Below are positions 21,243 to 38,748 of a DNA stretch of 64,000 nt, one piece after another. The DNA is from Deltaproteobacteria bacterium (lineage in GTDB: Bacteria > Desulfobacterota > DSM-4660 > Desulfatiglandales > Desulfatiglandaceae), in contig JAIPDI010000004.1 in assembly GCA_021737785.1 (NCBI GenBank), positions 62,001-126,000 of the forward strand. Reading direction: 5' to 3'. Position 1 is the first letter of the stretch; every line of letters begins with the position of its first letter. The notes beneath the pieces were generated by a model. The model was given only the letters and a program-made list of their open reading frames with translations. It was not told where the DNA came from and searched no databases. The translations under genes and the position numbers were made by a program.

Positions 21243-21272
21243 GTTACATCTCCTCTTGTGCTCGTTGTTCGG

Positions 21273-21746: not shown

Positions 21747-21760
21747 AGTGATCTCCTCCA

Positions 21761-22660: not shown

Positions 22661-23470
22661 TTAATATCCGGAATGCCGCTTCTTAATCGATTGCGGGTCC
22701 GTGGCCATCTTGCCTGGAAAACCTGTCTGCATATCCCTCAGTTGGAGGGCTTGCTGGAATTCATTGCCCAGCTTACAGAATATGCTGGTATCAAACCGGC
22801 AGAGTTTCGACTCGAGGAGTTTCTTGTCGGCATCCCCTGCGTGCTGCATCCATTGATGAAAATCAAGACCCCTTGGGAAATAGGCCGAGGCAAGAAATCC
22901 GGTGAGATCTGCTATCTTCCTCGTACGGTCCATGACGGAATCCAGGTATTGAAGTGAAACGATCCCTGAATCTCGCAATCTGTCGTAGAGGTGCGGCAAT
23001 AAAGGTCTTTTCTCAATTTCGATGATGGTCGCATCCCTGAACCAGGCGATAACGCCCTCTCGTGTGTCTGCAACATCGGCAAATTGTTCTGTCAGACCCA
23101 TGTGCCGTTCTTTTACCACAGGCCCCGGAAGCCCTCGGATATGGACCAGTATTAGCCTCGGATTGAACAGGAGATCGCCCACCCCCTGCACCTCATTCTG
23201 ATCCGCATAGTTGCCCGCACACAGCAGACCCAGCTCGTTGATGCGGGCAAGGGTCAGCCCGTAGGCCGCATCCGCATCGTGCTCGCACCCGATCTCCTCA
23301 AGTTCGTTCAGCCGCTCTTCCAAAAGGGGCTCGTTGAACCTGCTCAGATGTGCGTCCTTATCCAATAGGGCATTCAGCTTCACCAGACGCCGCACATATT
23401 CCCTGGCAGGCCTTCCATCTAAAAACCGGGTATCCGGTAAGCGGCTATAGAAATTCTCTACCACAACCAT
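22661..23470 (-). CDS. Unrecognised 269-aa protein leading the molybdenum hydroxylase operon
   Basis: It starts behind GGAGGGAGATGACAG. It is soluble, has no signal peptide, is rich in Asp/Glu/Leu and looks mostly helical: REYVRRLVKLNALLDKDAHL, EERLNELEEIGCEHDADAAY. A hydrophobic middle reads LILVHIRGLPGPVV. Cys residues are scattered (about 83, 105, 227 and 234) without a metal motif. I do not recognise a family. It ends 21 bp before the FAD-subunit gene, so it is co-transcribed and may be an accessory or maturation factor or an enzyme of the same pathway. Confidence 0.7.
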   Translation of the reverse strand: MVVVENFYSRLPDTRFLDGRPAREYVRRLVKLNALLDKDAHLSRFNEPLLEERLNELEEIGCEHDADAAYGLTLARINELGLLCAGNYADQNEVQGVGDLLFNPRLILVHIRGLPGPVVKERHMGLTEQFADVADTREGVIAWFRDATIIEIEKRPLLPHLYDRLRDSGIVSLQYLDSVMDRTRKIADLTGFLASAYFPRGLDFHQWMQHAGDADKKLLESKLCRFDTSIFCKLGNEFQQALQLRDMQTGFPGKMATDPQSIKKRHSGY

Positions 23471-24344: not shown

Positions 24345-25103
24345 ATGAAAAAATGTTTCTGGTGTTACGTGTTGATCCTGATTTTTTTGTCGGGAAGTGT
24401 TTGCCCAGTTGCCTTTGCCGGGGAGGAAGAATTAACCACATACGTGGCAGCCGGCTTGAAAAAACCGATGGATGTGGTCATCGAGAATTTTCGAAAGGAA
24501 AATGAAAACATCAAGGTGGTAGCCAATTATGCCTCTTCGGGGTCGCTTTATGCCCAGATCAGAGAGGGACAACCCTGCGACCTCTATTTCAGCGCCGACT
24601 GGCTGTATATCGAAAAGATCAAAAAGGATCGGAAACTGGCCGAGGGAATGAAGTTCTTAAAGGACCATGAAGTCCTGATCGTTTCCAAGACAGGAGAAGG
24701 AAAGGTCAAATCCGTCAAGGATTTGACCAGAAAGGGCGTTGTCCTGGTCATTGCCGACCCCCAGGCTCCGAATGGGGCCTATGCGGAGAGGGCCTTGAAA
24801 AACCTGGGCATCTGGGAAGAGATCAATGCCGCGGGCATTTTGAAGGCGCGGCCTTCCACCGTACACCAGGTGGCCATCATGGTGAAGGAAGACCAGGCGG
24901 ACGCGGCCATCATTTTCCAGAGCGTGGCAAAGGGCCATAAACTCAAAATCGTGGAAATGATCTCCCTGGATCTCACCGGTGAGATCATTTTCGCCGCGGC
25001 CATCATCAAGGGCGGGAATCAAAAACTGGCAAAGGAGTTTTACGATTTTGCCCGCCGCCATATAGCGGTGTTTACCCAATACGGATGGCAACCGTATGAA
25101 TAA
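24345..25103 (+). CDS. modA: Molybdate ABC transporter, periplasmic binding protein ModA
   Basis: 252 aa from the ATG at 24345, after GGAGGT. The signal peptide is cleaved near VAFAGEE. The mature protein follows the ModA pattern: LTTYVAAGLKKPMDVVIENF, NYASSGSLYAQIREGQPCDL, ADPQAPNGAYAERALKNLG and STVHQVAIMVKEDQADAAII. These supply the oxyanion-binding Ser and backbone residues for molybdate or tungstate. Its stop overlaps modB by 8 bp. It is the first gene of a modABC operon. Confidence 0.92.
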   Translation: MKKCFWCYVLILIFLSGSVCPVAFAGEEELTTYVAAGLKKPMDVVIENFRKENENIKVVANYASSGSLYAQIREGQPCDLYFSADWLYIEKIKKDRKLAEGMKFLKDHEVLIVSKTGEGKVKSVKDLTRKGVVLVIADPQAPNGAYAERALKNLGIWEEINAAGILKARPSTVHQVAIMVKEDQADAAIIFQSVAKGHKLKIVEMISLDLTGEIIFAAAIIKGGNQKLAKEFYDFARRHIAVFTQYGWQPYE

Positions 25104-25881
25104 ATTGAATAAAAATATCGTTGCGGTGCTTTTCACGCCGCTGTTTTTATTGCTGATCGTTTACCCCCTGATCGCCCTTCTGGCGCGCCTGGAATGGACA
25201 GGCACCCTGAAGACTTTTGCGGACAGCTATTTCTGGTTAAGCGTTCGGAACACCCTTTGTGCCGGCCTGCTGGCCGCCCTTCTAAGTCTGGTCCTGGCCG
25301 TCGGCTTTGGCTATTGCTATCTATTTTTAAGGCACACCCTGATCTACAAGGTGGCCAACTTGATGAATGACCTGCCCATTGCCCTCCCCCATACAGTAGC
25401 CGGTCTGACCCTTCTGATAGCCTTCGGCAGGAAGAACTTCGGTTTTATCGGAGAGACCGGCCTGGCATTCACCCTGGTGGCGGTGGTGCTGGCCATGTTT
25501 TTTGTATCCTATCCGCTGGCGGCCCGGACCGTGGCCTCCGGAATGGACAAAATGGAAACGGAAATGATCGATGTCGCAAGAACTCTGGGAGATACACCGG
25601 TCAAGGCCTACTTTCGGGTGGTCCTCCCCACGCTGGGGGAGGCATTGTTTTCCGGCTTTGTGCTGGCCTTTTCCCGTTCCTTAAGCGAATTCGCCGCTGT
25701 TGTCATGTTCGGGGGGAACTTGCCGGGAAGCACCCAGGTGCTCGCCTCCTATGTCTTTACCAAAGTGGAGGAAGGGGAACTGGAAATGGCGGTCACGGCC
25801 AGCGCCTTTTGTATCTTTCTTTCTCTATTGATTGTGGCGGCCCTGAGCCTGAGGAGGAGGGTGTGGCATGCTAAAGGTTGA
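25096..25881 (+). CDS. modB: Molybdate ABC transporter permease ModB
   Basis: 261 aa with five or six membrane helices. The cytoplasmic EAA loop reads MIDVARTLGDTPVKAYFRVV, the coupling helix for ModC. DLPIALPHTVAGLTLLIAFG resembles ModB/CysT permeases, and the late segment SEFAAVVMFGGNLPGSTQVL is typical of ModB. It overlaps modA by 8 bp and modC by 14 bp. Confidence 0.92.
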   Translation: MNKLNKNIVAVLFTPLFLLLIVYPLIALLARLEWTGTLKTFADSYFWLSVRNTLCAGLLAALLSLVLAVGFGYCYLFLRHTLIYKVANLMNDLPIALPHTVAGLTLLIAFGRKNFGFIGETGLAFTLVAVVLAMFFVSYPLAARTVASGMDKMETEMIDVARTLGDTPVKAYFRVVLPTLGEALFSGFVLAFSRSLSEFAAVVMFGGNLPGSTQVLASYVFTKVEEGELEMAVTASAFCIFLSLLIVAALSLRRRVWHAKG

Positions 25882-26545
25882 AAGGGTTGACAAGAGCTTC
25901 CCCCCCCGACAGGTGCTCCGGGGAGTCTCCCTGACTGTGGATTCTGAAATCAGGGTGATCATCGGCCTGAATGGCGGTGGCAAGTCTACATTGTTGAAGA
26001 TCATAGCAGGGATCTGGGAGGCCGACTCCGGCAATGTCTATATCGACGGCAAAGATGTGACGGACTTAAGCCCGGAAGACCGGGAAATCGGATACGTGCC
26101 TCAGCATCCGGCCCTTTTCAGGCATTTGACCGTGAAGGAAAACATCTATTATGCCCTCAGAAACGGCCGCGGGGCAGTCGAAGAGGGAGACCGATTGACA
26201 AGGATGTTGGGTCTGGGAGAGGTCCTGGACAAGAAGCCCGGCGTTCTGAGCGGGGGCTATCAGAGCCGGGTCTCCTTGGCCAGGGCCCTGGCCTCCCGGC
26301 CGAAGGTCATGCTTTTTGACGAGCCCCTGAGCGACCTGGATCTGGCGATCAAGGAACATCTGCTGCCCGAATTCAAAATGGTGCTGAAGGCACTGGGGAT
26401 GCCGGTTTTATATGTCACTCACGATCCGAGGGAAGCCGGCCTGGTGGGGGACAGTTTTTCGGCCCTGGTACAGGGAGAAATTAAGGAGATTCATTCCGCG
26501 GATGAGGCCTTCGATTTGATCAAAGCCGATTATGTTTCCGGCTGA
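25868..26545 (+). CDS. modC: Molybdate ABC transporter ATPase ModC, without regulatory domain
   Basis: 225 aa, ATPase domain only: Walker [12 protein letters not shown]-loop [10 protein letters not shown], signature [15 protein letters not shown], Walker [13 protein letters not shown] and H-loop YVTHD. Classical ModC is about 350 residues with a C-terminal molybdate-binding MOP domain that inhibits transport. Here it is absent, so feedback control must lie elsewhere. It is the last gene of modABC. Confidence 0.9.
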
Positions 26546-26651
26546 CCGCCGCACGGTGTGGGTAGAGGCGATGGCCCAGGTGAAACGAGGGCAAGGGGAA
26601 CAACTGAAAATCCAAAATTCTAATGATTATCCAATAAAGGAGGATCAGATC

Positions 26652-26790
26652 ATGTTTCATGCGGGAAGTCTGTCTGTTCCATTTGCCCCTATGGAAAAGG
26701 CCTTGGAGGCGAAGTATCCGAACCTTGACCTCCCGCGTGAGCCGAGCGGAAGCCAGAAGACTGCTCGAAATGCGCGTAATCTGGAGATGG
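26652..26790 (+). pseudogene. Remnant of a WtpA/ModA-type tungstate/molybdate-binding protein
   Basis: ATG at 26652 follows AAAGGAGGA and the frame reads [20 protein letters not shown], then [19 protein letters not shown]. The WtpA pattern is [31 protein letters not shown]. After about 45 residues the similarity ends. The same frame runs on into the next gene. It has lost its signal peptide and more than 200 C-terminal residues. The intact ribosome site shows that it is the start of a deleted paralogous transporter gene. Confidence 0.6.
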
Positions 26791-26876
26791 GATTAATGGA
26801 AAAGAGGGAGCTGTTGTCAAGAGTTCCAAGTAGAAGGTCTCGGTTCCGAACCAAACAGAAAAATGGAGGAAACGGT

Positions 26877-27977
26877 ATGAGTGAAAATGAAAGAGACGGC
26901 CTTAACCGAAGGGATTTTCTAAAAAGGACGGGGGCGTTCACCATGGCCACCGGATCGGTTGCGGCCCTGGGGGGCGTTACGCTTGCGCGTGCCGCCACGG
27001 AGACCGATGAGGAGGCGATCAATCGGTATTGGGAAAAAAAGCAGAAGGAGCATGAGGCCGAGGAGGCAGCGGTCCGGAAGCAGTATAAGGCATTCGGTCC
27101 ACCGCAGAAATTCATCTACCGTGGGTCTGACTGGACTGACGACAAGGCGACGTTCTATGCGCCGCTTCAGGAGGAATGTCCGTACCTTCCGGAGTTTCAG
27201 TCCATCTTCACCGAAGGAACGGCAGGTCAGTACTTCAAGTATACTCTCAAATTCGGAATGAAAGACATCATCCGCTTTCACGGCCATTCCTGTGAAGCCT
27301 TGTATTACACGCCGGCCATCCTTCGTCTGATCATTGACAAGATGTTTCCTGACGGCGTTGTGGATCGAACCCTATTGCGGGGTATAGCCGGGCAATCTCC
27401 GTGAATTGCCGATGCGATCGCCTATGTTACAGGCGGCAGGTTCCAGTTTGGAACCTTGAATATCGATCCCAATTTAGGTCATTCAGTCGTGCTGCAGAGG
27501 ATCGACACCGAGGAAACATGGATGGGGGCGTGGAAGGACGGCATTCAATCATGGAATGCCATAAAGGTCTTCGGCACGCCCAACAAGGCAAATCCCTCGC
27601 CCTACAAGAGATGGTCGGCCTGGAAGCATGAGCCGGACACGCCGGAAGTGCAACTGAAGGACTGCAAGATTCAGTGGAAATACGATAAACCTGAGTTGCT
27701 TCAACGACTGAGAGATATTAAGGATAACCTGAAGTATCTTCCCAAAGGACAGAAGCCCACCATCGATCCCAATCAGATCCGGGAGGAATTCACCTGGCTT
27801 CAGTATCGACATCTTCGCGAGGTCTTTAAACACCCCATAGCGGAGAGTTTTCAGATCAAGCGGGTGCCCGGTTATAAATGGGAATATCCCCATTGTGAAC
27901 CCATGTGGGTCCCCCGGCTGGATCAGAAGGCCAAGTGGGCGCCATTTATGGACCACCCGGAACAGCTCGTGGATTAA
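26877..27977 (+). CDS. Tat-exported FmdE-family selenoprotein (in-frame TGA at codon 176)
   Basis: 366 aa if TGA at 27402-27404 is read as selenocysteine. The start ATG follows GGAGG. The Tat signal [12 protein letters not shown] ends near LARAAT, so the product is exported folded. The FmdE domain starts with [13 protein letters not shown] (about residues 138-150); 36 residues after that Cys comes U, followed by [11 protein letters not shown]. In the FmdE protein at 34954 the same position is Cys (ACGTDAIQVLTG, 35 residues after HGHFC). The frame continues for 190 codons with no further stop. Hairpins suited to SECIS function follow the TGA. FmdE domains bind a metal near these Cys residues. 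The alternative is a nonsense mutation; selA/selB are not in the window. Confidence 0.8.
27405..27456 (+). other. Candidate bacterial SECIS element(s) downstream of the TGA
   Basis: Two stem-loops lie within the coding sequence after the TGA. TCGCCT (27418-27423) pairs with AGGCGG (27431-27436) around ATGTTAC. A perfect 8-bp stem, AGGTTCCA (27438-27445) with TGGAACCT (27449-27456), carries the loop GTT. Bacterial SECIS elements have a short stem with a G (often GU) at the start of the loop, usually 16-37 nt after the UGA. The first fits by distance, the second by loop but lies at 41 nt. Confidence 0.5.
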
Positions 27978-28020
27978 TGCCTGAAGCGGATAACCGCAAC
28001 CAAAACGGCTGTGTGCTGTC

Positions 28021-28099
28021 CCGTCATTTCGGCCTAACCCTAGCCGGAATCAGTCCGTCGTATTTCTGGACTCCGGCTGGAATCGTGCCGGAATGACGG
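28021..28099. repeat. Palindromic intergenic repeat (CCGTCATT...AATGACGG type)
   Basis: CCGTCATTTCGGC at the left end mirrors GCCGGAATGACGG at the right. The interior contains further CCGGAAT and ATTCCGGC-like words. This is the general form of the dispersed CCGTCATTCCGG elements of many proteobacterial genomes. It can fold into a long hairpin between the FmdE and porin genes. Confidence 0.6.
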
Positions 28100-28284
28100 A
28101 AGGCTGAGCGTGCAGTGGAAGGATGGCCATATTTTCTTTTTTTTGTGACAGAAAACCTGGCCATAAGGCCTGATGAATGAATGCTCCTGTCCCTATTTAT
28201 TGTTTCGGGGACAGGAGCAAGACCACACCATCCACCCCATTGACCTGCAACGGGGGAATATCAGATCTGAAGGAGATCTATATC

Positions 28285-29625
28285 ATGAGGTATACAAGAA
28301 TCCTTTTCGTCATTTTTGTGGTCGCCCTATGTTGGCCCGTAATCGTCAGCGGCGAGGCAAGGGCAGACGCCATATCGGATACTCTCACGGGGATACGTCT
28401 GGGCCCCGGCGAGCTGGATCTGGGAGGCAGTCTTCGGTATCGTTATGAATATCAAAATAATTTCAGCGTCCAGAAATACGGCACGAATCAAACCGATAAT
28501 GTCTTGCTGATGCGGACGAGGATCAATGTAGGCTACCGGCTGCCTCAAAAGGCACGATTTTTTGTGCAATTCCAGGATGCGCGATTCGCCCTCTCTGATC
28601 TGAAAAAAGATAATTTTGGTCCCAACTGCCCTTATTGGAATGAGCTGGATTTGCGCCAGGCATTCTTTGAATGGAGAGAAATCGGAAACTCCCCTTTAGG
28701 CTTCAAGGTCGGAAGACAGGCGATCCAATATGGCGATAACCGGATATTCGGTCCTGGGGGCTGGGGTAATGTGGGCCGCTACACCTGGGATGGGGGGAAG
28801 ATCCTGGTGCAGACCCCGGCGGTGGACGTGGATATCTTTACCGCACAGCGGATACTTTATCAAAAAGATGAATTCGATGACGACCACTTTCCCTATAAGG
28901 TTTATGCTGCGTACGGCCAGATCAAATCGATCCCCAAAAACAAGTTGGATCTCTTCTACGTGGTCAAGTGGGACTCCGACGAAACCACTAAAGGGAAGAC
29001 GGGGGTCGGGGAACTCCTCGTACAAACCGTCGGATTTTATGGGAAAGGAAAATGGAACCGATTCGATTATGCTTCCACCTTTGCCTATCAGTTTGGGGAT
29101 TACGGCAAGGACAACATCAACGCCTTCGGCCTCAATGCAGAGGTCGGATATACGCCTATTGATTTCTGGACCCCGCGGTTTGCCGTTTCTCTGAGTTATG
29201 CCTCCGGAGACAAGGATCCAAACGACGGGACTTACGGGACCTTTGACGGGGTGTTTGGGGCCATCGACATGTATTATGGCCGGATGAACCTCTTTTCCTG
29301 GATGAACCTGATGGACATCCAGGTCGGCGTGAGCGTAAAGCCGGTGGAGAAGATGAAAATATCCCTGGACTACCACAACTTCAGCCTGGCACAGAAAAAA
29401 GACGCCTGGTATTACTGTACAGGGAAAAAGATGCGCTGGGATCCCACCGGCGCGTCCGGGTCCGACCTGGGCAATGAAATCGATCTCGTCTGGCAGTATC
29501 AGATCCATCCCCGCATCGGCCTTATGGCCGGGTGCGCCGCATTTTTTCCGGGGGATTTTGTCGAGGCGACCGGCAGCGACGATAATGCCTATTGGGCCTT
29601 TGGCCAGATTATGATTAAAATCTAG
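28285..29625 (+). CDS. Outer-membrane porin, alginate-export (AlgE-like) family
   Basis: 446 aa from the ATG at 28285, after AAGGAG. The signal peptide is cleaved near GEARADA. The mature chain is beta-strand rich with alternating aromatic residues (GGSLRYRYEYQNNF, GYRLPQKARFFVQFQDARF, VGRQAIQYGDNRIFG) and ends in a hydrophobic strand finishing MIKI. This matches the alginate_exp barrel family, which is broader than alginate and includes uptake channels. Position after the modABC-FmdE genes suggests a role in moving a substrate or metal chelate, but this is inference. Confidence 0.78.
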   Translation: MRYTRILFVIFVVALCWPVIVSGEARADAISDTLTGIRLGPGELDLGGSLRYRYEYQNNFSVQKYGTNQTDNVLLMRTRINVGYRLPQKARFFVQFQDARFALSDLKKDNFGPNCPYWNELDLRQAFFEWREIGNSPLGFKVGRQAIQYGDNRIFGPGGWGNVGRYTWDGGKILVQTPAVDVDIFTAQRILYQKDEFDDDHFPYKVYAAYGQIKSIPKNKLDLFYVVKWDSDETTKGKTGVGELLVQTVGFYGKGKWNRFDYASTFAYQFGDYGKDNINAFGLNAEVGYTPIDFWTPRFAVSLSYASGDKDPNDGTYGTFDGVFGAIDMYYGRMNLFSWMNLMDIQVGVSVKPVEKMKISLDYHNFSLAQKKDAWYYCTGKKMRWDPTGASGSDLGNEIDLVWQYQIHPRIGLMAGCAAFFPGDFVEATGSDDNAYWAFGQIMIKI

Positions 29626-29833
29626 GGCTTTGATACGGCGTCGGTGCATCTTGGGGCTCAGGAGGGGGATAATCCGTTACTCATCAAAAATTTGACAAAA
29701 GGGGTGTCTGGGGCTATAGGTGCGTGTATGTCCAGGCAGCCCGATTGGACAGGCGAAAGTCTTTCGGATATGTGAATCGTTAACGCCCCAAATTCGGATT
29801 ATCCCCCAATCCCAGGAGAAAGGATTTTAAGAT

Positions 29834-31489
29834 ATGGACATCCTCTTCAAAGATCCGGTCACCGGTAAGCTCATGGAAAGGGTTGATGTGGTCGATACCC
29901 GCGCAAACCGGGAAATCGGCTTCCTTGAGGCCCGCAATTCCCTGGACTGTCTGAAAATCGGCAACCACACACTGGACACGGATCTCTACGAGCTGACCAT
30001 GACCGCAGGATATCTCGTGTCCGGAAAAGGGGAACAGAAAGCCTGCTTTGACCTCTACTACCGCCAGAATCCGGATGACGGCGGATTTTGCATTTTTGCC
30101 GGTCTGGAGAGCGCCATACGCTATATCAACCATCTCAAGATTTATCCGGATGACCTGGATTATCTGGCCGGTCTCGGGATCTTCACCCGGAAAGCCCTGG
30201 AGAGATTATCAAAAGGAATCCGGTTCAGCGGCGATATATGGGCCGTGCCCGAGGGCACGGTCGTGTTTCCCAATGAACCCCTGATCAGGGTGACCGGCCC
30301 CATTGCCGAAGCCCAGATTCTGGAAACCACCCTGCTGGCCATCGTGGGCCATCAGACCCTTATCGCCACCAAGGCGGCGCGTTTGAAGCTCGCCACCCGG
30401 GGAGCACCGGTGGTGGATTTCGGCACCCGCCGGGCCCACGGCGTGGAAGCGGCCCTCTATGGGGCCCGGGCGGCCTATATCGGCGGCTGCGAAGGAACAT
30501 CGAATGTCATGGCCGGCAAACTCTTCGGGATCCCGGTGAGAGGGACCCATGCCCACAGCTGGGTGGAGAGCTTTGATAAAGAGATCGAATCGTTCGAGGC
30601 CTTTGCAAAGGTTTTCCCAGACAACTGCGTATTACTCGTGGACACGTACGAGGTGGTGGAAGGCGTGCGCAACGCCATACGGGTGGCGAAAAAGATGCGC
30701 AAGGCCGGTAAGGCCCTCCAGGGGATCCGCATTGACAGCGGCGACCTGGCCTATTATTCCAAAATCGCTCGCGACATGCTGGACGAAGCCGGCTTCTCCG
30801 AAGTAAAGATTCTGGCAAGCAGCGACCTGGATGAATGGCTCATTGAAACCCTTCGGGATCAGGGGGCCCGCATCGACATCTGGTGCGTGGGCACCAAGTT
30901 GATGACGTCCTATCAGACTCCTGCACTGGGAGTGGTATACAAGCTCATGGCTGCGGACAGCAAAGACGGGAATCTCATCCCCAAGATCAAAATATCCGAG
31001 AACCCTGAAAAGGTGACCAATCCGGGGGTTAAGAAAATAGTCCGTTTCTACAACCTCAAAGGCCGGATGATGGGAGATCTTCTGACCGACGTGAACGAAA
31101 AGATCCCTCAAGGCGTTCCGGTGGTCGCGCATCACCCCATGTATGACTATCTGAAAAAGTCCTATAAGCCTCCCTATCATGCCAAGGAGATCATGATTCC
31201 TGTTTTCGAGAAGGGGAGACAGGTCTATGACCCGCCCCCTCTCTCGCAGGTCAAGGCCCATGCGGAGGAGGAAGTGGGAAGACTGGAGGCGGAAACCAAA
31301 CGCTTCATCAATCCTCACATCTACAAAGTCTCACTTTCAGATACCCTCTACGATATCAAGAAGCAACTCCTCACCTGGCACCAACTCAACCACGCGAATG
31401 CACCCAAGGAGAAGTCAGGAAAGCGTCGGCCCGCTCCGGCCCCGAGTCATGTCTCGACCGCCAATAATGATGGCGCGGGGAAGCGTTAA
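29834..31489 (+). CDS. pncB: Nicotinate phosphoribosyltransferase
   Basis: 551 aa. It catalyses nicotinate plus PRPP to nicotinate mononucleotide in NAD salvage. Family segments: LDTDLYELTMTAGYL near residue 48, FGTRRAHGVEAALYGARAAYIGG near residue 197 (written here in two parts: FGTRRAHGVEAAL, YGARAAYIGG), GTHAHSWVESF with the catalytic His, IRIDSGDLAYYSK and the phosphate-binding region near DIWCVGTKLM. The last 40 residues are a Lys/Pro/Ala-rich tail of no known role. GGAGAAAGGA precedes the start. It is not obviously in an operon. Confidence 0.92.
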   Translation: MDILFKDPVTGKLMERVDVVDTRANREIGFLEARNSLDCLKIGNHTLDTDLYELTMTAGYLVSGKGEQKACFDLYYRQNPDDGGFCIFAGLESAIRYINHLKIYPDDLDYLAGLGIFTRKALERLSKGIRFSGDIWAVPEGTVVFPNEPLIRVTGPIAEAQILETTLLAIVGHQTLIATKAARLKLATRGAPVVDFGTRRAHGVEAALYGARAAYIGGCEGTSNVMAGKLFGIPVRGTHAHSWVESFDKEIESFEAFAKVFPDNCVLLVDTYEVVEGVRNAIRVAKKMRKAGKALQGIRIDSGDLAYYSKIARDMLDEAGFSEVKILASSDLDEWLIETLRDQGARIDIWCVGTKLMTSYQTPALGVVYKLMAADSKDGNLIPKIKISENPEKVTNPGVKKIVRFYNLKGRMMGDLLTDVNEKIPQGVPVVAHHPMYDYLKKSYKPPYHAKEIMIPVFEKGRQVYDPPPLSQVKAHAEEEVGRLEAETKRFINPHIYKVSLSDTLYDIKKQLLTWHQLNHANAPKEKSGKRRPAPAPSHVSTANNDGAGKR

Positions 31490-31531
31490 CAGGTGTGCAG
31501 CGGTGTTATGGATAATACCAGGTGATACCGG

Positions 31532-32158
31532 ATGATAGGGTTCTTAACCACCGGAACGGTCCTGGGCCTTTCCGCAGGTATCGCCCCCGGGCCTCTTCTT
31601 GCCCTGGTCGTATCTGAAACCCTCAGGCACGGCATGAAAGCCGGGGCCAAGGTTGCCCTGGTTCCCATCATCTCCGATCTTCCGATTGTTGCATTGACCT
31701 TATACATATTGACGAAGCTGTCGGCCTTCCATATCATATTGGGGACGATTTCATTTTTGGGCGGTTTTGTACTCTTGTATATGGGATACGAGAGCCTCGT
31801 TACCAGAGGGGTCGATCTGAGCTTCCGGGAACTCAACCCCGACTCTTTTAGAAAAGGCATTCTCGTCAACGTATTAAACCCGCATCCATACCTCTTCTGG
31901 GTAAGCATCGGCGGGCCTTCCACAATAAAGGCCTGGGATCAAAGTGCCTTTGCGGCTGTGGCGTTTATCGGCAGCTTTTATCTGTTGCTGGTTGGATCCA
32001 AAATTCTGGTGGCAGTACTGGTGGGCCGATATCGGTCGTTTTTAACAGGCCGCTTTTATGTATACACCATGCGGGTACTGGGTCTGATACTGTTGGCCTT
32101 TGCGCTTGTTCTTTTTCGCGATGGAATGAATCTAATGGGGTTTCAGGTCCTCCGATGA
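31532..32158 (+). CDS. LysE family amino-acid exporter
   Basis: 208 aa with six hydrophobic helices. The N-terminal GTVLGLSAGIAPGPLLALVV is the LysE signature (G-x-x-PGP near the first helix). A long cytoplasmic loop containing FRELNPDSFRKGILVNVLNP HPYLFW precedes the C-terminal three helices. LysE transporters export amino acids or related metabolites by proton exchange. The substrate is unknown. It lies 42 bp downstream of pncB. Confidence 0.88.
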   Translation: MIGFLTTGTVLGLSAGIAPGPLLALVVSETLRHGMKAGAKVALVPIISDLPIVALTLYILTKLSAFHIILGTISFLGGFVLLYMGYESLVTRGVDLSFRELNPDSFRKGILVNVLNPHPYLFWVSIGGPSTIKAWDQSAFAAVAFIGSFYLLLVGSKILVAVLVGRYRSFLTGRFYVYTMRVLGLILLAFALVLFRDGMNLMGFQVLR

Positions 32159-32380
32159 CACAGGGCTGCGCAAGGGCAGCGGGACCTGCCCTTGCGGAGG
32201 GACCCCGTCCATTTGGTAATTCTTCAATGACTTATCCGACCGTTTTAAAGTCCAGCCTCTCTGAGGCGGATCCAAGATAGACGGGACTACGGAGGAGTTC
32301 CTCTCTATGATCCATGCCGGCCCTGCCTGCCGGCGGCGGAAAGGCCGGATACCTGGGGGTGCCGGGAGAAGGGTGGTCGA

Positions 32381-33796
32381 ATGGCGGGGAAAACTGCCGG
32401 GGGTAAGGATGGCATGGGAGCAACTGACGGGTCTCGGGCGGGGTTGAAGCGGGAACTCGGCGCGGGCTCTGCCATGATCCTGGTCATTGCCAATATGATA
32501 GGGACCGGAATATTTACCACCTCCGGCTTTATCATGGAGGCCCTTGGCGATCCTGTGGCCATGCTCCTCTGCTGGGTTGCCGGCGGGGTCCTGGCCCTTT
32601 CAGGGGCACTCTGCTATGGCGAACTGGGCGCAATGTTTCCCAGTGCCGGAGGGGAATATGTGTACCTGAGGGAAAGTATGGGGAGGTTGCCCGGATTTCT
32701 CTCCGGGTGGATCTCGTTGATCGTCGGGTTTTCAGCGCCCATTGCAGCCGCGGCCATGGCCTTTGCCTCCTATTTTTTCCGCGTGTTTCCAAAAACTTTT
32801 GCCGGGGCTCCCCATACCCCGTTCCTTGAACTCGCATGGATCCGTATCTCTCCGCTGTCCCTCTTTGCCGTGGGGGTGATCGTTCTTTTTTCGCTCATCC
32901 ATTGTTACAGCCTCCATCTCGGAAGCCGCGTCCAGAACTGGCTGACAGTATTCAAGATCGGGGTCATCCTGGCCTTTGTGGGAGGTGGGATCGCCTTTGG
33001 TCACGGGTCGATGGACCATTTTTCTTCCGGGATGGGTAAGGGCGCCCTTCTCTCAACCGGGTTTGCCTCATCTCTGATCTTTATCTCCTTCGCCTACAGC
33101 GGGTGGAACGCGGCCGCCTATCTGGGCGCTGAGATCAGAAACCCGGCCAGGAGTCTGCCCCTCTCTCTGTTCTGGGGAACCCTTTCGGTCATGGTCCTGT
33201 ACCTCCTTCTGAACGTCGTCTTTATCTATGCACTCCCTCCATCGGAGATGAGCGGGGTCCTGGAGGTGGGCGCCGCATCGGCCTTCACCCTGTTCGGGAA
33301 GGGGGTTGAAAGCATCTTTGCCGGGGCGATCACCTTTTGTCTCCTCTCTGTTATCAGCGCCATGATCATGGCCGGCCCCAGGGTATATTATGCCATGGCA
33401 AGGGATCATCTCTTTTTCGCGCGCTTCGGCCGGGTCACCCGGAGACACGGGGCGCCGGCCCAGGCCGTTTTTCTGCAGGCCGCCATCGCCATACTGATGG
33501 TCATCACCTCGTCTTTTGACAAACTCCTCTTATACATCGGCGTTACCCTTTCGCTCTTCGCCATGCTCACGATAATCGGCATGATGGTGCTGCGCGCAAA
33601 GGGATGTCATCTTGGAAGCCCCTACAGGACTTTCGGATATCCGATCACGCCTCTCTTTTTCATCCTGTTCAATCTGTGGATGATTGTCTTCTTCATAAAG
33701 GCCAATCCGATGGTTTCCCTGTACAGTGGAGGCACCATCGCCTGCGGGTTGGTGGTTTTTTTGTGCTTTAACAGAAAAGCAGAACAGATCACCTAA
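32381..33796 (+). CDS. APC superfamily amino-acid permease
   Basis: 471 aa with twelve predicted helices. MIGTGIFTTSGFIMEALGDP near residue 38 is the unwound substrate-binding segment of helix 1. SGALCYGELGAMFPSAGGEY and AYSGWNAAAYLGAEIRNPAR are conserved in helix 2 and helix 6 regions of the LAT/APC amino-acid transporters. The N-terminal 25 residues are basic and cytoplasmic; a second ATG at codon 12 could be the start. No substrate motif is decisive. Confidence 0.9.
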   Translation: MAGKTAGGKDGMGATDGSRAGLKRELGAGSAMILVIANMIGTGIFTTSGFIMEALGDPVAMLLCWVAGGVLALSGALCYGELGAMFPSAGGEYVYLRESMGRLPGFLSGWISLIVGFSAPIAAAAMAFASYFFRVFPKTFAGAPHTPFLELAWIRISPLSLFAVGVIVLFSLIHCYSLHLGSRVQNWLTVFKIGVILAFVGGGIAFGHGSMDHFSSGMGKGALLSTGFASSLIFISFAYSGWNAAAYLGAEIRNPARSLPLSLFWGTLSVMVLYLLLNVVFIYALPPSEMSGVLEVGAASAFTLFGKGVESIFAGAITFCLLSVISAMIMAGPRVYYAMARDHLFFARFGRVTRRHGAPAQAVFLQAAIAILMVITSSFDKLLLYIGVTLSLFAMLTIIGMMVLRAKGCHLGSPYRTFGYPITPLFFILFNLWMIVFFIKANPMVSLYSGGTIACGLVVFLCFNRKAEQIT

Positions 33797-33999
33797 GGGT
33801 TTTCAGCAACGCCGTCAGGATCCCGGCAAGAAACGCATCGTGACCAAGGGCGGGCCCAGGCTATTTTTCGTTTCGAAGCGATAACTTGGCGGGAGCGGTT
33901 GTCCAGCCGCCAAGAGTCGAGACAAGAGGCCACGCATAGTGTATTTTCACTTCGAGGCCGCTTCATCATGAGAAATTGCCGCTCATGCGGACTTTCGGC
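33797..33999. other. Intergenic region after the APC permease, no gene seen
   Basis: This is the first part of a 373-bp gap before the flavin-reductase gene. No convincing reading frame, RNA or terminator directly follows the permease. The second part holds the promoter and leader described separately. Confidence 0.5.
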
Positions 34000-34028
34000 T
34001 TGACAAGGAAGAATGGGGTCATTATAAA
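34000..34028 (+). promoter_or_regulatory. Near-consensus sigma-70 promoter
   Basis: TTGACA at 34000-34005, a 17-bp spacer and TATAAA at 34023-34028. Transcription would begin about 34035 and run through a leader of roughly 135 nt, including a complete terminator hairpin, before the gene at 34171. Confidence 0.7.
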
Positions 34029-34102
34029 GACACTTGAGGCAGGAAGTCTCAAAGGGCAAGAGGCCCAAACGTCCCAAAAATCAATATCCAAGGATAATTA
34101 AC

Positions 34103-34155
34103 CACCACGAAGGTGTATCCTCCCCGAAAGGGAGGGGCCTTCGTGGTTTTTTTTT
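34103..34155 (+). terminator. Strong intrinsic terminator inside the leader of the flavin-reductase gene
   Basis: CCACGAAGG (34105-34113) pairs with CCTTCGTGG (34138-34146), with an inner GC-rich GAAA-capped stem, followed by nine T residues (34147-34155). It sits downstream of the promoter at 34000 and 15 bp before the coding sequence. It is thus placed to attenuate that gene rather than only to end upstream transcripts. Confidence 0.85.
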
Positions 34156-34170
34156 GACAAAAAGGAGCAT

Positions 34171-34773
34171 GTGGTGCTGTTTAAACCGTTTATGCGCGAG
34201 GGGATGATGCCCCTCCCCGTGACCTTTATCTCCACCATCAGCCCGGACGGCGTACGGAATATCGCTCCCTGGTCCTGTGTAATGCCCATATTGCGGCCCC
34301 TGGACCTCATCTGTGCGGCATCGGCCAAGAAACGCGACACCCTGGTCAATATCCGGAAGACCGGGCAGTTTGTATTGAATCTGGCAGGAGCGGCCATGCA
34401 GGACAAGGTCATGCCTACGGCCAGGTACAGCACCCCTGAGGTGGACGAATTCGCGGAAGCGGGTCTGGAAGAAAAGCCGTCTTTATTGGTCAAACCGCCG
34501 GGCATTGCGGGCTGCTATGGCTGGATGGAATGCGAACTCGTGCGGGAATTCGAGGAAGACCGATATGCGCTCATCGTGGGAAGAGTGTTGCGGCTCGAGG
34601 TGGCGGATGAGGTCTTGAAACCGGATGGGTCTCTGGACATTGAAAAGGCCAGACCGCTCCTGATTACCGGCAGCAAAAAGGGGATGCATTTTTGTACGCT
34701 CCAGGATCTGGGCGTATCACAGGCCTTTTCAGCCATGTTTCCGGATGGAAAGGATCCTTTTGAAGTGAGCTAA
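34171..34773 (+). CDS. Flavin reductase-like (flavoredoxin) FMN-binding protein
   Basis: About 200 aa. GTG at 34171 or 34174 is the start; the latter has better spacing from AAAGGAG. The split-barrel FMN fold is indicated by MPLPVTFISTISPDGVRNIA, then SWxxx-like PWSCVMPILRPLDLICAASA, KRDTLVNIRKTGQFVLNLAG and EMEC-like WMECELVREF. Family members bind FMN and pass electrons in sulfate reducers (flavoredoxin). It stands alone, under its own promoter and leader terminator. Confidence 0.85.
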   Translation: MVLFKPFMREGMMPLPVTFISTISPDGVRNIAPWSCVMPILRPLDLICAASAKKRDTLVNIRKTGQFVLNLAGAAMQDKVMPTARYSTPEVDEFAEAGLEEKPSLLVKPPGIAGCYGWMECELVREFEEDRYALIVGRVLRLEVADEVLKPDGSLDIEKARPLLITGSKKGMHFCTLQDLGVSQAFSAMFPDGKDPFEVS

Positions 34774-34935
34774 AGTGACTAAAGTGAGCTAAAGTGCCTA
34801 AAATTGAGGGATTCTGTTAATTCATTATAACCGGAATGCGTTAGAGTGTGAAGTGTGGAGTTAGGAGTTGAAAGAACCGATATCCGGTATCGAGTATCCA
34901 GTATCTAGCAACCACCAACCAGTAACGAGCAACCA
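34762..34935. repeat. Island of short degenerate repeats
   Basis: Four units of AAAGTGA-CT type run across the stop codon of the flavin-reductase gene (34762-34805). From 34846 come GTGTGAAGTGTGGAG words, then TATCCGGTATCGAGTATCCAG words, then AGCAACCACCAACCAGTAAC words. Periods are 9-11 bp and units drift. No coding frame explains it. Confidence 0.7.
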
Positions 34936-34953
34936 TTTTTAGGAGAAAATCCC

Positions 34954-35559
34954 ATGAATGCAGATAAAATCATGGAGCAGGAAGACTTCAGGCGGTGCGC
35001 CGAGTTCCACGGGCACTTTTGCCCCGGACTGGCCATCGGGTACCGGGCCGGCAAAGCGGCCCTTGAATGGCTTGCAGAGAGGAGGGCCCCGGATGAGGAA
35101 ATCGTGGCCACCGTGGAGACCAATGCCTGCGGAACAGACGCCATTCAGGTCCTGACCGGATGCACCCTGGGCAAGGGAAACCTTCTCTGCAGGGATCAGG
35201 GGAAACACGCGTATACGATCGTAAGCCGAAAAACAGGGGAGGGGGTCCGCATCGCCCTGCTCCATGGCGTCATGAACCTGAATGATCGACACCTGGACCT
35301 GATTCAGAAGATCAGGGAGGATCGGGCCACGCCGGAGGAGAAGAGCGAATTTCAGGCGCTTCACCTGAATAAAGGACGGGAACTCCTGGAAACGCCCCTG
35401 GAAGCGCTTTTTTCGATCCGGAAAACCAGCACACCTGTCCCTGAAAAGGCCGTCATCGAGCCTTCCAGGCCGTGCGACCGCTGCGGGGAACCTGCCATGA
35501 TATCCAGGATGGTGACCGTCGACGGCCGGACATTGTGCGGGGACTGTGCGGAATCATGA
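34954..35559 (+). CDS. FmdE-family protein with C-terminal zinc ribbon
   Basis: 201 aa, cytoplasmic. FmdE domain: FHGHFCPGLAIGYRAGKAAL (about residues 18-37) and ETNACGTDAIQVLTGCTLGK (about 69-88). The His and Cys residues form the family's metal site. The C-terminal ribbon is CDRCGEPA plus LCGDCAES. The founding member belongs to molybdenum formylmethanofuran dehydrogenase operons, but bacterial copies commonly lie beside metal transporters. The stop overlaps the ABC permease start (ATGA), so the protein is tightly coupled to that importer, perhaps as a metal-handling partner. Confidence 0.88.
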   Translation: MNADKIMEQEDFRRCAEFHGHFCPGLAIGYRAGKAALEWLAERRAPDEEIVATVETNACGTDAIQVLTGCTLGKGNLLCRDQGKHAYTIVSRKTGEGVRIALLHGVMNLNDRHLDLIQKIREDRATPEEKSEFQALHLNKGRELLETPLEALFSIRKTSTPVPEKAVIEPSRPCDRCGEPAMISRMVTVDGRTLCGDCAES

Positions 35560-36659
35560 TCCATGCAGACGAGACGGAAACCGGGACCGGGAGTTCGCTG
35601 ACAGCCTCCTACAAGGGGGTCTTGCGACAGAAAACGATGTTCTTTTTTGCCCTGCTGGCGCTCCTGGGAATATTGGCCGTCTACGCCATTGCGGCCGGAA
35701 CCTATGACCTGTCGCCGCTGAAGGTTATCCGGTCCCTGTTGGGGTACGAGAAAGGGGCTGCCGACATCGTAATCTGGAATATCCGGATGCCCAGAATCGT
35801 GGCAGCCATCGTGGCCGGATGGGGCCTGGCCATCTCCGGCGTGGCCATGCAGTGCCTCCTCAGAAATCCCCTCGGTTCTCCCTTTACCCTGGGAATCAGC
35901 CATGGGGCCGCTTTTGGCGCGGCCCTCGCCATTGTTGTCCTGGGAGGGGGCGCGACCCAGAGCAGTGTCCTGAGGACCACGGCCTCAAACCTGATATTTG
36001 TCGAGAACATCGTCTCCGTCACCTTCTTTGCATTTTTGGGGGCCATGGCGGCCACGCTGGTGATCCTGGCCCTCTCCAGGATGAAGCGGCTCTCGCCCGG
36101 TTCCATTATCCTGGCCGGGGTTGCCCTCTCCTCCCTCTTTGTCTCAGGGACCATCCTGATCCAGTATTTTGCCACAGAGGTGGAGATCGCCACCATTGTC
36201 TTCTGGACCTTTGGGGATGTCTCCCGATCGAGTTGGAAGGAGATCGGCGTGATGACCGCGGCGTCGGCAGGGGTCACCGTCTATTTTGTCCTGAACCGAT
36301 GGCGGTTGAATGCCCTCTCCTCAGGGGAGGACGTGGCCAGGGGGATCGGGGTGGATGTGGAGAGGGTGCGATTGTGGGGCATGCTCATGGCCGCGCTGAT
36401 CGCGGCCCTGGTGACCGCCTTTCACGGGGTTATCGCCTTTCTGGGTCTTCTGGCCCCCCATATTGCCCGGCGCATGGTGGGGGCGGATCATCGTCTCTTG
36501 ATCCCCTTTGCCTCCATAGTGGGTGCCCTCCTCCTGCTTTTGGCGGACACGGTGGGCCGGATCCTGATAGGCTCCGGGACCCTTCCCGTAGGCGTCCTCA
36601 CCTCTTTTATGGGTGCGCCGCTCTTTCTCTATCTTCTCACAAGGGGGTACGGAAAATGA
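35556..36659 (+). CDS. FecCD-type ABC transporter permease
   Basis: 367 aa from the ATG at 35556 overlapping the FmdE stop. About ten membrane helices. IRMPRIVAAIVAGWGLAISG and MQCLLRNPLGSPFTLGISHG are hallmark sequences of the BtuC/FecCD family (R-x-P-R and NPL-x-xP-x-xLG). FHGVIAFLGLLAPHIARRMV and GTLPVGVLTSFMGAPLFLYL complete the match. These permeases import iron siderophores, haem, cobalamin or, in MolBC, molybdate. The stop overlaps the ATPase start. Confidence 0.92.
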   Translation: MIHADETETGTGSSLTASYKGVLRQKTMFFFALLALLGILAVYAIAAGTYDLSPLKVIRSLLGYEKGAADIVIWNIRMPRIVAAIVAGWGLAISGVAMQCLLRNPLGSPFTLGISHGAAFGAALAIVVLGGGATQSSVLRTTASNLIFVENIVSVTFFAFLGAMAATLVILALSRMKRLSPGSIILAGVALSSLFVSGTILIQYFATEVEIATIVFWTFGDVSRSSWKEIGVMTAASAGVTVYFVLNRWRLNALSSGEDVARGIGVDVERVRLWGMLMAALIAALVTAFHGVIAFLGLLAPHIARRMVGADHRLLIPFASIVGALLLLLADTVGRILIGSGTLPVGVLTSFMGAPLFLYLLTRGYGK

Positions 36660-37435
36660 TGCTTACCATTGCCGGGATCGAGTTCAGCTACAACAGCCAC
36701 CCTGTCCTGAGCAACATCCATCTGGAGCTGGATCGTGGTTCCATCCTGGCCGTGCTGGGGGTGAACGGGGCCGGAAAATCCACCTTTCTGAAGTGTATCA
36801 ACCGGATTCTCCATGTCAGGAAGGGAGCCGTCGGTCTTCACGGTGAAGATGTCCTCCGCATGAAAGGGGAGGAAATTGCGAGACATATGGGATATGTGCC
36901 CCAGAGATACGGCGAAGAGGAACTGACGGTTTTTGATGCGGTTCTCCTGGGGCGAACGCCCTACGTGAAATGGAAGGCCGATGAAACGGATTTCACGGTT
37001 GTTGAAACCACCCTCAAACAGATGGGACTGGAGGCCCTTGCCATGAGGCCGGTGAGCACCCTCAGCGGCGGCGAGATGCAGAAGGTGGTCCTGGCCAGGG
37101 CCCTGGCCCAGGAGCCGGACCTCCTTCTGCTGGACGAGCCCACCAGTAATCTGGACCTCAAGAACCAGTTGGAGGTCATGGGTCTGGTCCAAACGGCCGT
37201 CAGAAAACGGGGGTTGTCTGCCATCGTCTGTCTGCATGATATCAATCTCGCCTTGCGATACGCCGACCGTTTTCTGATGCTCAGAGACGGCAGGGTCCAT
37301 ACCCAGGGGGGCAGGGCCGCGGTGACCCCGGAGGCGATCCATCAGGTTTATGGGGTCCGGGTGATCTTGGGCGAGGTACAGGGATACCCTATTGTTGTGG
37401 CCCTGAATGGAAACGGAGGGAAGCCGGTGAGCTGA
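36656..37435 (+). CDS. FecE-type ABC transporter ATPase
   Basis: 259 aa from ATG at 36656. Walker A GVNGAGKSTF, Q-loop GYVPQRYGEEELTVFD, signature LSGGEMQKVVLARAL, Walker B LLLLDEPTSNLDL and H-loop CLHDINLALRYADRF. It groups with FepC/BtuD/MolC-type ATPases that pair with FecCD permeases. The reading frame is open well upstream, but that part is a shadow of the permease gene. Confidence 0.92.
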   Translation: MMLTIAGIEFSYNSHPVLSNIHLELDRGSILAVLGVNGAGKSTFLKCINRILHVRKGAVGLHGEDVLRMKGEEIARHMGYVPQRYGEEELTVFDAVLLGRTPYVKWKADETDFTVVETTLKQMGLEALAMRPVSTLSGGEMQKVVLARALAQEPDLLLLDEPTSNLDLKNQLEVMGLVQTAVRKRGLSAIVCLHDINLALRYADRFLMLRDGRVHTQGGRAAVTPEAIHQVYGVRVILGEVQGYPIVVALNGNGGKPVS

Positions 37436-37640
37436 TGAGCTGATAAGCTGATGAGCTATTAGGTCGGGATAGAAACGTTTTAAAGAACGAACGTCCAACG
37501 TCGAACGTCCAACATGGAACATCGAATGAACCACAACGAATGGCCAACGACTCATGCCCGAGCAAGGGTTCATAAGGGCTTGCCAGCTTATCAGCTCACA
37601 GGCTCAATAGCTCACCAGCGCAGTTGCTTATCAGTCTTTT
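37429..37640. repeat. Repeat island with inverted outer arms between ATPase and binding-protein genes
   Basis: The left arm (37429-37462) is built of GAGCTGATAAGCTGATGAGC-like words. The right arm (about 37578-37634) carries the reverse complement, as in GCCAGCTTATCAGCTCA. The centre (37486-37535) repeats GAACGTCCAACGTCGAACGTCC. The island starts inside the last codons of the ATPase gene. It could fold into a long imperfect hairpin in the operon transcript. Confidence 0.75.
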
Positions 37641-37659
37641 TACGAAAAGGAGATAAAGG

Positions 37660-38748
37660 ATGAAAAAACCTTCATGCATTTTTCTGTTGTGCTGCATGGC
37701 AGCCCTTGCATCCCTGTGGGCTGTGGGCCTGGCAATGGCCGGTGATTCCATGACCGTTACCGACATGGAAGGCCGGAAGGTTGCGGTCCCAGCGGATCCG
37801 AACCGCGTCATCGCCATCGGACCCGGGACACTCCGAATTTTGTGCTATCTGGAAGCAAAAGAGAAGATCGCCGGAATCGAAAACTTTGAAAATGTCCGTA
37901 CACAGGGCCGACCCTACTGGATTGCCAGTCCCGAGCTTAAAGATCTTCCGGTGATCGGTCCCGGCGGCCCCCAGCACCTGAACAAGGAGCCCGACCTCGA
38001 GGCGGTCCTCAAGGTCAACCCCGATGTGATCTTCGCCACCTATATGAAACCCGCTACAGCCGATGCCCTTCAGAAAAAAATCGGTATCCCGGTGGTGATC
38101 CTCACCTATGGGCGGTTTCCAGCCTTCAACGAGAGGCTCTATGATTCCCTCAGACTGGCCGGCAAGATCCTGGGAAAGGAGGCTCGTGCTGAAGCGGTCG
38201 TAGACTTTATTGAGGGCGCGAAAAAGGACCTCCTGAAAAGAACCGACGGCATCGACCCTTCCAGGAAGCCCAGGGTCTACATCGGGGGGGTTGGTTTCAG
38301 GGGGGTTCAGGGCATCGAGAGTACGGATCCAGACTACATTCCCCTGGAGTGGGTCCGGGCCGACAATATCGCGGCCGGTGCATCCGGGGAAAACCACCTC
38401 TTTATCGACAGGGAAAAACTCCTCATGTGGGACCCGGACGTCATCTTCGTGGACGCCGGCGGATACGGCCTCATTAAGCAGGATTTTGAAAAAAAGTCCA
38501 AATTCTATCAATCCCTGAAGGCCTTTCAAAACGGCCGTGTCTACGTACTCCTCCCGTTCATCTACTACGTAGCCAATATCGGGACGGCCGTGGCCGATGC
38601 CTATGGGGCAGGCAAGATTCTTTATCCCGAGCGTTTTCAGGATATCGACCTTGCAGAAAAGGCGGACGAGATCTATACCTTCCTTGTGGGGGCCCCGGCA
38701 TACAAAAAGATGGTCCGTGACTTCGGTCCCCTCGGAGCCCCTTTTTAG
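37660..38748 (+). CDS. FecB/BtuF-type periplasmic substrate-binding protein
   Basis: 362 aa, AAGGAGATAAAGG before the start. The signal peptide is cleaved near LAMAGDS. The helical-backbone binding-protein fold is seen as MTVTDMEGRKVAVPADPNRV, VIGPGGPQHLNKEPDLEAVL, VNPDVIFATYMKP and WDPDVIFVDAGGYG. It completes an FmdE-permease-ATPase-binding-protein operon. The MolA-type molybdate/tungstate proteins and siderophore binders share this fold, so the ligand cannot be settled here. Confidence 0.9.
   Translation: MKKPSCIFLLCCMAALASLWAVGLAMAGDSMTVTDMEGRKVAVPADPNRVIAIGPGTLRILCYLEAKEKIAGIENFENVRTQGRPYWIASPELKDLPVIGPGGPQHLNKEPDLEAVLKVNPDVIFATYMKPATADALQKKIGIPVVILTYGRFPAFNERLYDSLRLAGKILGKEARAEAVVDFIEGAKKDLLKRTDGIDPSRKPRVYIGGVGFRGVQGIESTDPDYIPLEWVRADNIAAGASGENHLFIDREKLLMWDPDVIFVDAGGYGLIKQDFEKKSKFYQSLKAFQNGRVYVLLPFIYYVANIGTAVADAYGAGKILYPERFQDIDLAEKADEIYTFLVGAPAYKKMVRDFGPLGAPF

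Follow-up and report, generated by a model that had tools for sequence, protein, structure and literature searches.

The window, a stretch of 64,000 nucleotides that is part of contig C4 in the 5.33-Mb draft genome of a Deltaproteobacteria bacterium, carries a gene for an exported protein of the FmdE family (PF02663) with a TGA codon inside its reading frame. This codon, number 176, is very probably read as selenocysteine (Sec), because it stands in a column of conserved cysteines, recurs as TGA in a second species, is followed by sequence under purifying selection and occurs in a genome with selB, a tRNA-Sec and formate dehydrogenase-type genes that contain TGA themselves. The Sec form of FmdE, found here in two species, is a candidate new selenoprotein family. 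Taken as a whole, and with moderate confidence, the protein may be a Sec-containing FmdE that is exported by the twin-arginine translocation (Tat) route and serves the acquisition of molybdenum or tungsten (Mo/W) together with an adjoining ATP-binding cassette (ABC) importer. The TGA, the alignment, the selection behind the codon, the Sec genes and the neighbourhood are read from the sequence, while the fold is a model. Loci of relatives that were compared with the window gene are labelled L019, L020 and so on.

An in-frame TGA at a conserved cysteine position

The features of the gene are as follows (SECIS, selenocysteine insertion sequence):

26877-27977, + strand: exported FmdE with in-frame TGA, 366 amino acids plus stop if the TGA encodes Sec (PF02663 49.0 bits, cut-off 22.9)
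27402-27404, + strand: TGA codon 176, predicted selenocysteine, sharing an alignment column with the conserved FmdE cysteine (Cys55 of 2glz)
27418-27436, + strand: second hairpin common to the window and L019, UCGCCU-AUGUUAC-AGGCGG, loop 19 nt after the UGA
27438-27456, + strand: candidate SECIS hairpin AGGUUCCA-GUU-UGGAACCU, 8 bp, -9.9 kcal/mol, kept in L019

From 26877 the frame runs to the TGA at 27402-27404, and beyond it a further 190 codons are open up to the TAA at 27975-27977, the TGA being the sole stop inside the 366-codon frame. Four open reading frames (ORFs) of the window end in TGA with at least 60 open codons behind it (those starting at 26877, 21273, 1773 and 3968); behind ORF 21273 the open stretch is the frame of the next gene. 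The PF02663 match of the exported FmdE (residues 134–231) spans codon 176, and a PF02663 search of the genome gave this protein 41.6 bits with one TGA inside the match. Homology to FmdE extends over residues 127–330 (HHalign), and a stop at the TGA would cost the protein its fourth metal ligand and much of the FmdE domain.

The predicted site comprises FHGHSC at 134–139 (HGHxC at 135–139), U176 and D179. In a 16-row alignment, two rows of which are the TGA genes of the window and L019 read as cysteine, H135, G136, H137 and C139 are invariant (16/16), as are the columns of residue 176 and D179. A profile comparison with ten cytoplasmic FmdEs places residue 176 on their invariant Cys59, which in turn aligns with chain index 56 of 2glz, that is Cys55 (leading Gly0 counted). 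In 2glz the bound metal is held by His15, His17, Cys19 and Cys55, and 2gvi shows unexplained density at 1.8 Å from the sulfur of Cys61, which is equivalent to Cys55, according to the parts of the describing paper that were available (PMC2954224). In 22 relatives, the window gene itself being left out of the count, the codon at this site encodes cysteine in 20, is TGA in one (L019) and TAA in one (L026). L019 belongs to another species, Desulfobacterales MAG (metagenome-assembled genome) SV3-B15.1, and has the TGA at the same codon, its FmdE being 76% identical to that of the window. The substituted site falls outside any CxxU/UxxC motif.

The N-terminus carries a twin-arginine motif (RRDFLK in the window, RRDFLK in L019 and RRKFLK in L020), as judged against the Tat consensus, and the TIGR02811 score of 26.8 bits is below the cut-off of 48.45. 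Read from this N-terminus, the exported FmdE would be a Tat substrate. The original prediction had recognised two FmdE proteins in the window, one exported and one cytoplasmic, and ascribed a conserved His/Cys metal-binding set to the domain. Both proteins were confirmed and the set is intact in the cytoplasmic one; the exported one has HGHxC, but the position of its fourth ligand is taken by the TGA, which had been overlooked, as had a third FmdE elsewhere in the genome.

Selection and synonymous conservation behind the TGA

Over the 188 codons after the TGA, the proportions of non-synonymous (pN) and synonymous (pS) differences between the window and L019 are 0.081 and 0.795, respectively, and amino-acid identity is 84% after the TGA and 78% before it. 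Differences at synonymous sites have reached saturation (pS 0.82 across the mature protein), and with a pN of only 0.081 the downstream part is therefore under selection as protein in both lineages. Purifying selection behind the TGA is strong in both genes. In codons +1 to +20, the two TGA genes share the synonymous choice at 14 of 18 positions, but at 99 of 223 in the rest of the gene (p 0.006 in a one-sided Fisher test, valid for a stretch set beforehand). The Cys gene of L020 shows no such excess against either TGA gene over the same codons (3/9 and 5/11).

Selenocysteine machinery and the candidate SECIS element

The window's genome has genes for SelB (397.4 bits, cut-off 242.25) and for a tRNA-Sec with anticodon TCA (tRNA-Sec(UCA)), and carries three formate dehydrogenase-type genes with TGA, two of which score over the TIGR01591 cut-off. 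The hairpin loops of these three genes lie 18, 18 and 23 nt from the UGA, and two of the loops are GGUCU. A tRNA-Sec (TCA) is likewise present in the L019 and L020 genomes.

Published criteria for bacterial SECIS (bSECIS) elements are a loop of 3–9 nt, a stem of 4–16 bp, a G in the first two loop positions, a spacing of 16–37 nt and a minimum free energy of at most -7.5 kcal/mol, and some putative elements deviate from this model (excerpts of PMC13188914). The GUU-loop hairpin behind the FmdE TGA (8–9 bp; -9.9 kcal/mol in the window and -7.9 in L019) fits the loop, stem, G and energy values but not the spacing. The second shared hairpin (27418-27436) has no G in its first two loop positions. 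The Cys gene of L020 has a strong hairpin of its own, unlike that of the window, right behind the Cys codon (-18.4 kcal/mol for 45 nt, L020:8508-8552), which is possibly a relic or a chance structure.

Fold and family membership

An AlphaFold2 model of the exported FmdE (16 rows) has predicted local distance difference test values of 78–93 in blocks 121–220, the mean over the whole chain being 65.3. Under E 0.001, Foldseek matched FmdE structures alone (the two chains of 2glz, plus 2gvi and 3d00), and the Z scores from VIA-align were 11.6 for 3d00, 10.9 for 2gvi and 10.9 for 2glz, the next match reaching 4.8. A sequence search of the PDB with the full exported protein returned no FmdE structure and a profile search one chance match, and within NCBIfam neither an FmdE nor an FmdE-selenoprotein model matches the protein.

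The exported FmdE is like the solved PF02663 structures (2glz, 2gvi and 3d00) in fold, HGHxC motif, position of the fourth ligand and metal-transporter neighbours, as far as these are described in the available parts of PMC2954224. It differs from them in its TGA-coded fourth ligand, its twin-arginine export signal, an N-terminal part of about 100 residues, an insert, a C-terminal tail and the lack of a zinc-finger match. L020 encodes, besides its Cys-type FmdE, a second exported protein that is FmdE-like (L020:15875-16645, - strand; PF02663 30.5 bits); its motif reads FHGYC, and the site holds a CC pair.

Genomic neighbourhood

The exported FmdE lies between a modA-modB-modC-like importer and a porin of the alginate-export type:

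24345-25103, + strand: modA, molybdate-binding protein (TIGR01256 119.5 bits, cut-off 62.5)
25096-25881, + strand: modB-like permease (TIGR02141 134.7 bits, below the cut-off of 182.6)
25868-26545, + strand: modC/wtpC-like ATPase, 225 amino acids (scores below curated cut-offs)
26649-26786, + strand: wtpA remnant (tungstate-binding protein gene), 46 codons (NF003196 E 3.3e-12)
28285-29625, + strand: outer-membrane porin, Alginate_exp type (domain match)

The original prediction that modABC precedes the exported FmdE was borne out; ModA is over its cut-off, ModB and ModC score below theirs, and 331 bp with the wtpA remnant, which had been overlooked, separate modC from the FmdE gene. In the remnant, 21 of 45 amino acids are identical to WtpA of L021. 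Both TGA-bearing FmdE genes are preceded by modABC (ModA of L019, 96.4 bits), but the importers share only 31% (ModA), 29% (ModB) and 34% (ModC) identity although the FmdEs share 76%; therefore the link between modABC and Sec-FmdE is probably not due to simple inheritance of one block.

At L021, a TupA-like gene (125.2 bits, cut-off 400) precedes a gutted FmdE; close by are genes for a WtpA that passes its cut-off, for a regulator of HTH-PBP type and for a porin with 37.5% identity to that at 28285-29625. At L022, an FmdE fragment stands behind another TupA-like gene (123.9 bits). The wtpA remnant in the window and these TupA/WtpA neighbours point the same way as the low identity of the two modABC sets. 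The Cys form at L020 is near genes resembling molybdopterin oxidoreductases (judged by eye), one of which has a TGA in a formate dehydrogenase-type motif. The order at L022:3067-6897 is a TonB-dependent receptor, a tetrapyrrole-methylase-domain protein with a weak Oxidored_molyb match, the TupA-like gene and the FmdE fragment.

Exported FmdE was counted at 21 loci (the window, L019, L020, L083–L096 and L116–L119), leaving out the L021 and L022 remnants, the short L111 and L098, which is the L020 genome again. An ABC importer is adjacent at 8 of them: its gene is next upstream on the same strand at 7 (the window, where the wtpA remnant intervenes, L019, L083, L085, L116, L117 and L118) and divergent at one (L084). 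An operon of an SsuA/NMT1-type binding protein, a permease, an ATPase and an exported Cys-type FmdE (decayed in L085) is kept in L085, L116, L117 and L118, and the L083 contig has, of that importer, a related ATPase only. The binding proteins of L116–L118 are distantly SaoX-like (82.8–85.8 bits, cut-off 300). For the cytoplasmic type, a FecCD or FecB homologue lies within about 1.4 kb at 11 of the 30 best-scoring loci of the sampled phylum. The placement of FmdE beside metal or oxyanion importers, as originally predicted, is real, though not new, since most PF02663 genes are known to adjoin metal-ion transporter genes and the association was published in 2010 (Axelrod et al. 2010, PMC2954224, from the parts available). 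That FmdE carries metal (Mo/W or a chelate) on both sides of the membrane, as the original prediction suggested, is a hypothesis.

Distribution, decayed copies and origin

PF02663 FmdE occurs in 296 of the 395 sampled genomes of the phylum. A protein search with the exported FmdE gave a match in 15 of these 395 genomes at 1e-10 and, at 1e-15, in 3/46 genomes of the family, 5/85 of the order, 2/46 of the class of G228 and 6/46 of the class of G286; the class-level search gave the same 85 genomes as the order, and the genome sets overlap. Across these searches, an internal TGA was found in the window's own genome only. The L019 gene came from a separate scan of contigs, which gave 11 candidate stretches at 4 loci. 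A PF02663 search over the phylum showed no internal stops among the matches listed (about 150), the weaker, exported-type matches lying outside that list.

Three relatives have damaged copies. In L021, all that is left is the Tat N-terminus, with the C-terminus following in another reading frame, and the L022 copy is a fragment with a TAG. The L026 gene (G228) reads TAA at the Sec/Cys position (L026:1774) and has a further TAG (L026:2077). UAA-coded Sec was considered for L026 and rejected on account of the anticodon TCA of its tRNA-Sec and the additional TAG, and for the same reasons the gene is probably a decayed copy. As a guess, each of the two stops could have arisen by a G-to-A change, from TGA and TGG respectively. 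In the tree, the Sec forms of the window and L019 group together (78/70 support, 80% of bootstraps), and therefore a single origin of Sec-FmdE is likely, if weakly supported.

Proposed role and alternative explanations

In the proposed mechanism, UGA176 would be decoded by SelB and tRNA-Sec, giving a His135-His137-Cys139-Sec176 set in an FmdE fold. The protein would fold, and perhaps load metal, in the cytoplasm before its export by Tat; in the periplasm it would bind or exchange metal and aid Mo/W acquisition with the adjoining ABC importer. It could thus act as a metal-binding or ligand-exchanging accessory, perhaps with the porin at 28285-29625 as a partner. Binding of a metal at the predicted site is probable, and a role in Mo/W uptake is the reading towards which we lean slightly; the export route, the metal, the partner and the chemistry are what we infer.

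A bolder version, which we regard as speculative and improbable, is that Sec-FmdE is a periplasmic Mo/W-handling enzyme of sulfidic habitats whose His-His-Cys-Sec centre captures thiomolybdate or thiotungstate, swaps the sulfur ligands and passes the oxyanion to ModABC/WtpABC. It is assumed here that ModA-type proteins do not bind thiometallates. A selenolate is a softer ligand and a better nucleophile than a thiolate, and therefore would suit the soft thiometallates of sulfidic water. If so, a selenium-dependent step of Mo/W acquisition would feed the many Mo/W enzymes of the organism, some of them Sec-containing formate dehydrogenases.

Several observations weigh against a Sec-FmdE in Mo/W acquisition. 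These are: (i) the absence of an adjacent importer at 13 of the 21 exported-FmdE loci (at three of which, L086, L088 and L092, the contig breaks off so soon upstream that an importer could have been missed), including L119, whose FmdE nonetheless shares 95% identity with that of L084, (ii) the frequent position of the Cys sister clade beside an SsuA/NMT1-type importer, the substrate of which is unknown, (iii) the metals seen in the core site of solved FmdE crystals, namely Zn/Ni (2glz), Zn (2gvi) and none (3d00) (PMC2954224, parts available), which favour neither Mo nor W, (iv) the small number of species, two, from which the Sec form is known, both of them draft assemblies, (v) the decayed copies in L021, L022 and L026, which mean that the gene can be lost, (vi) the distance of the GUU-loop hairpin from the UGA, 41 nt as against the expected 16–37 and the 18–23 of the formate dehydrogenase-type genes, which makes the SECIS atypical and not convincing alone, (vii) the folding energy after the TGA, which does not stand out from that of shuffled sequences (z between +0.88 and -1.85 in four cuts), and (viii) the peak of synonymous conservation, which is not significant without a pre-set position (scan p 0.45).

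Among the alternatives, the one that survives best is that the protein is indeed a selenoprotein, but a periplasmic thiol/selenol redox protein unrelated to Mo/W, beside which the mod genes are incidental. Selenoproteins are often thought to be redox-active (PMC13188914) and FmdE has at its core a permuted fold of the thioredoxin-like kind (PMC2954224), as stated in the parts of both papers that were available, and the 13 loci with no adjacent importer fit as well. The HGHxC metal-ligand motif, invariant in all 16 rows, the absence of CxxU/UxxC at the site and the recurrence of various kinds of Mo/W importer beside FmdE argue the other way, and we consider such a redox protein possible but rather unlikely.

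That the TGA is a true stop, leaving a young pseudogene or a truncated protein of 175 amino acids, is very unlikely. The decayed copies in relatives and the imperfect bSECIS match would agree with it, but the same codon is TGA in two species with pS about 0.8 and a downstream pN of 0.081, the stretch behind it belongs to the FmdE domain, and the TGA sits on a conserved cysteine with no other stop in 366 codons. Another reading of the UGA, be it misreading as tryptophan or cysteine or a split gene restarting at the TTG start candidate at 27456, hardly deserves credence, since TGA is an ordinary stop for the genes adjoining the exported FmdE, a tRNA-Sec(UCA) is present and the 17 codons that separate the TGA from this TTG encode conserved protein core.

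Comparison with known systems

Table 1 of a 2026 review lists 119 bacterial selenoprotein families, and FmdE/PF02663 is not among them (PMC13188914, parts available). Within the open-licence literature, in the available text of papers including PMC9312934, PMC8318568 and PMC12013277, a Sec-containing FmdE was not found, and a report elsewhere is possible; in that of PMC10102598, the name FmdE has no occurrences. The exported FmdE resembles known bacterial families, as the same review presents them, in its in-frame TGA on a conserved cysteine, its Cys homologues and the accompanying Sec machinery, and is unlike them in a SECIS spacing outside the usual range and in having no CxxU-type motif. 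In the Sao system (SaoB, SaoX and SaoP, among others), too, Sec proteins are tied to ABC transporters and some of the Sec is proposed to bind metal, but there the Sec lies within the transporter subunits themselves and the families are different (PMC13188914, parts available). As for the ModABC, WtpABC and TupABC importers, genes of such types adjoin Sec-FmdE or FmdE remnants, and the literature passages on these importers that were available name no FmdE partner.

FmdE structures were released in 2006–2008, and the function of the family was still open in the paper describing them (PMC2954224, parts available). A natural Cys-to-Sec replacement at a site ligand would mark this residue as chemically important and provide a handle on FmdE function, besides adding one more candidate to the families of prokaryotic selenoproteins. 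Should the Mo/W link be true, selenium use would be connected with the uptake of metals needed by formate dehydrogenase and other selenoenzymes. The exported FmdE gene is probably split into two broken pieces by automatic annotation.

Other genes of the window and genome

Other features of the window are:

34954-35559, + strand: cytoplasmic FmdE with zinc finger (PF02663 150.8 bits, cut-off 22.9, plus zinc-finger match)
35556-36659, + strand: FecCD/BtuC-type permease, ATGA overlap with FmdE at 35556-35559 (domain match)
36656-37435, + strand: FecE/BtuD-type ATPase (profile match)
37660-38748, + strand: Peripla_BP_2 substrate-binding protein (domain match)
18888-22639, - strand: molybdenum hydroxylase, three subunits, divergent from modABC (TIGR03194 923.9 bits, cut-off 994.55)

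The cytoplasmic FmdE at 34954 has HGHFC and Cys59 intact, its Cys ligand positions all being cysteine. Its predicted ATGA coupling to a FecBCD-type importer held, with the overlap at 35556-35559 followed by permease, ATPase and Peripla_BP_2 genes; this is an ordinary, known arrangement, separate from the Sec form. The large subunit of the molybdenum hydroxylase is closest to 4-hydroxybenzoyl-CoA reductase. Within the window, Rfam at gathering thresholds gave no match and ARAGORN no tRNA.

The genes at 22661-23470 (- strand) in the window and L020:15064-15846 (- strand) belong to one family (41% identity over 246 aligned positions) with no match in Pfam or NCBIfam, which adjoins modABC/FmdE in the window and the second exported FmdE-like gene in L020. 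The third FmdE of the genome, at C71:10338-10706 (= L097:6186-6758, - strand), has the motif FHGN in place of FHGHxC and an FmdE-type treble-clef finger. The same region contains a ModC-like ATPase and a gene that, we presume, resembles a molybdopterin-binding protein.

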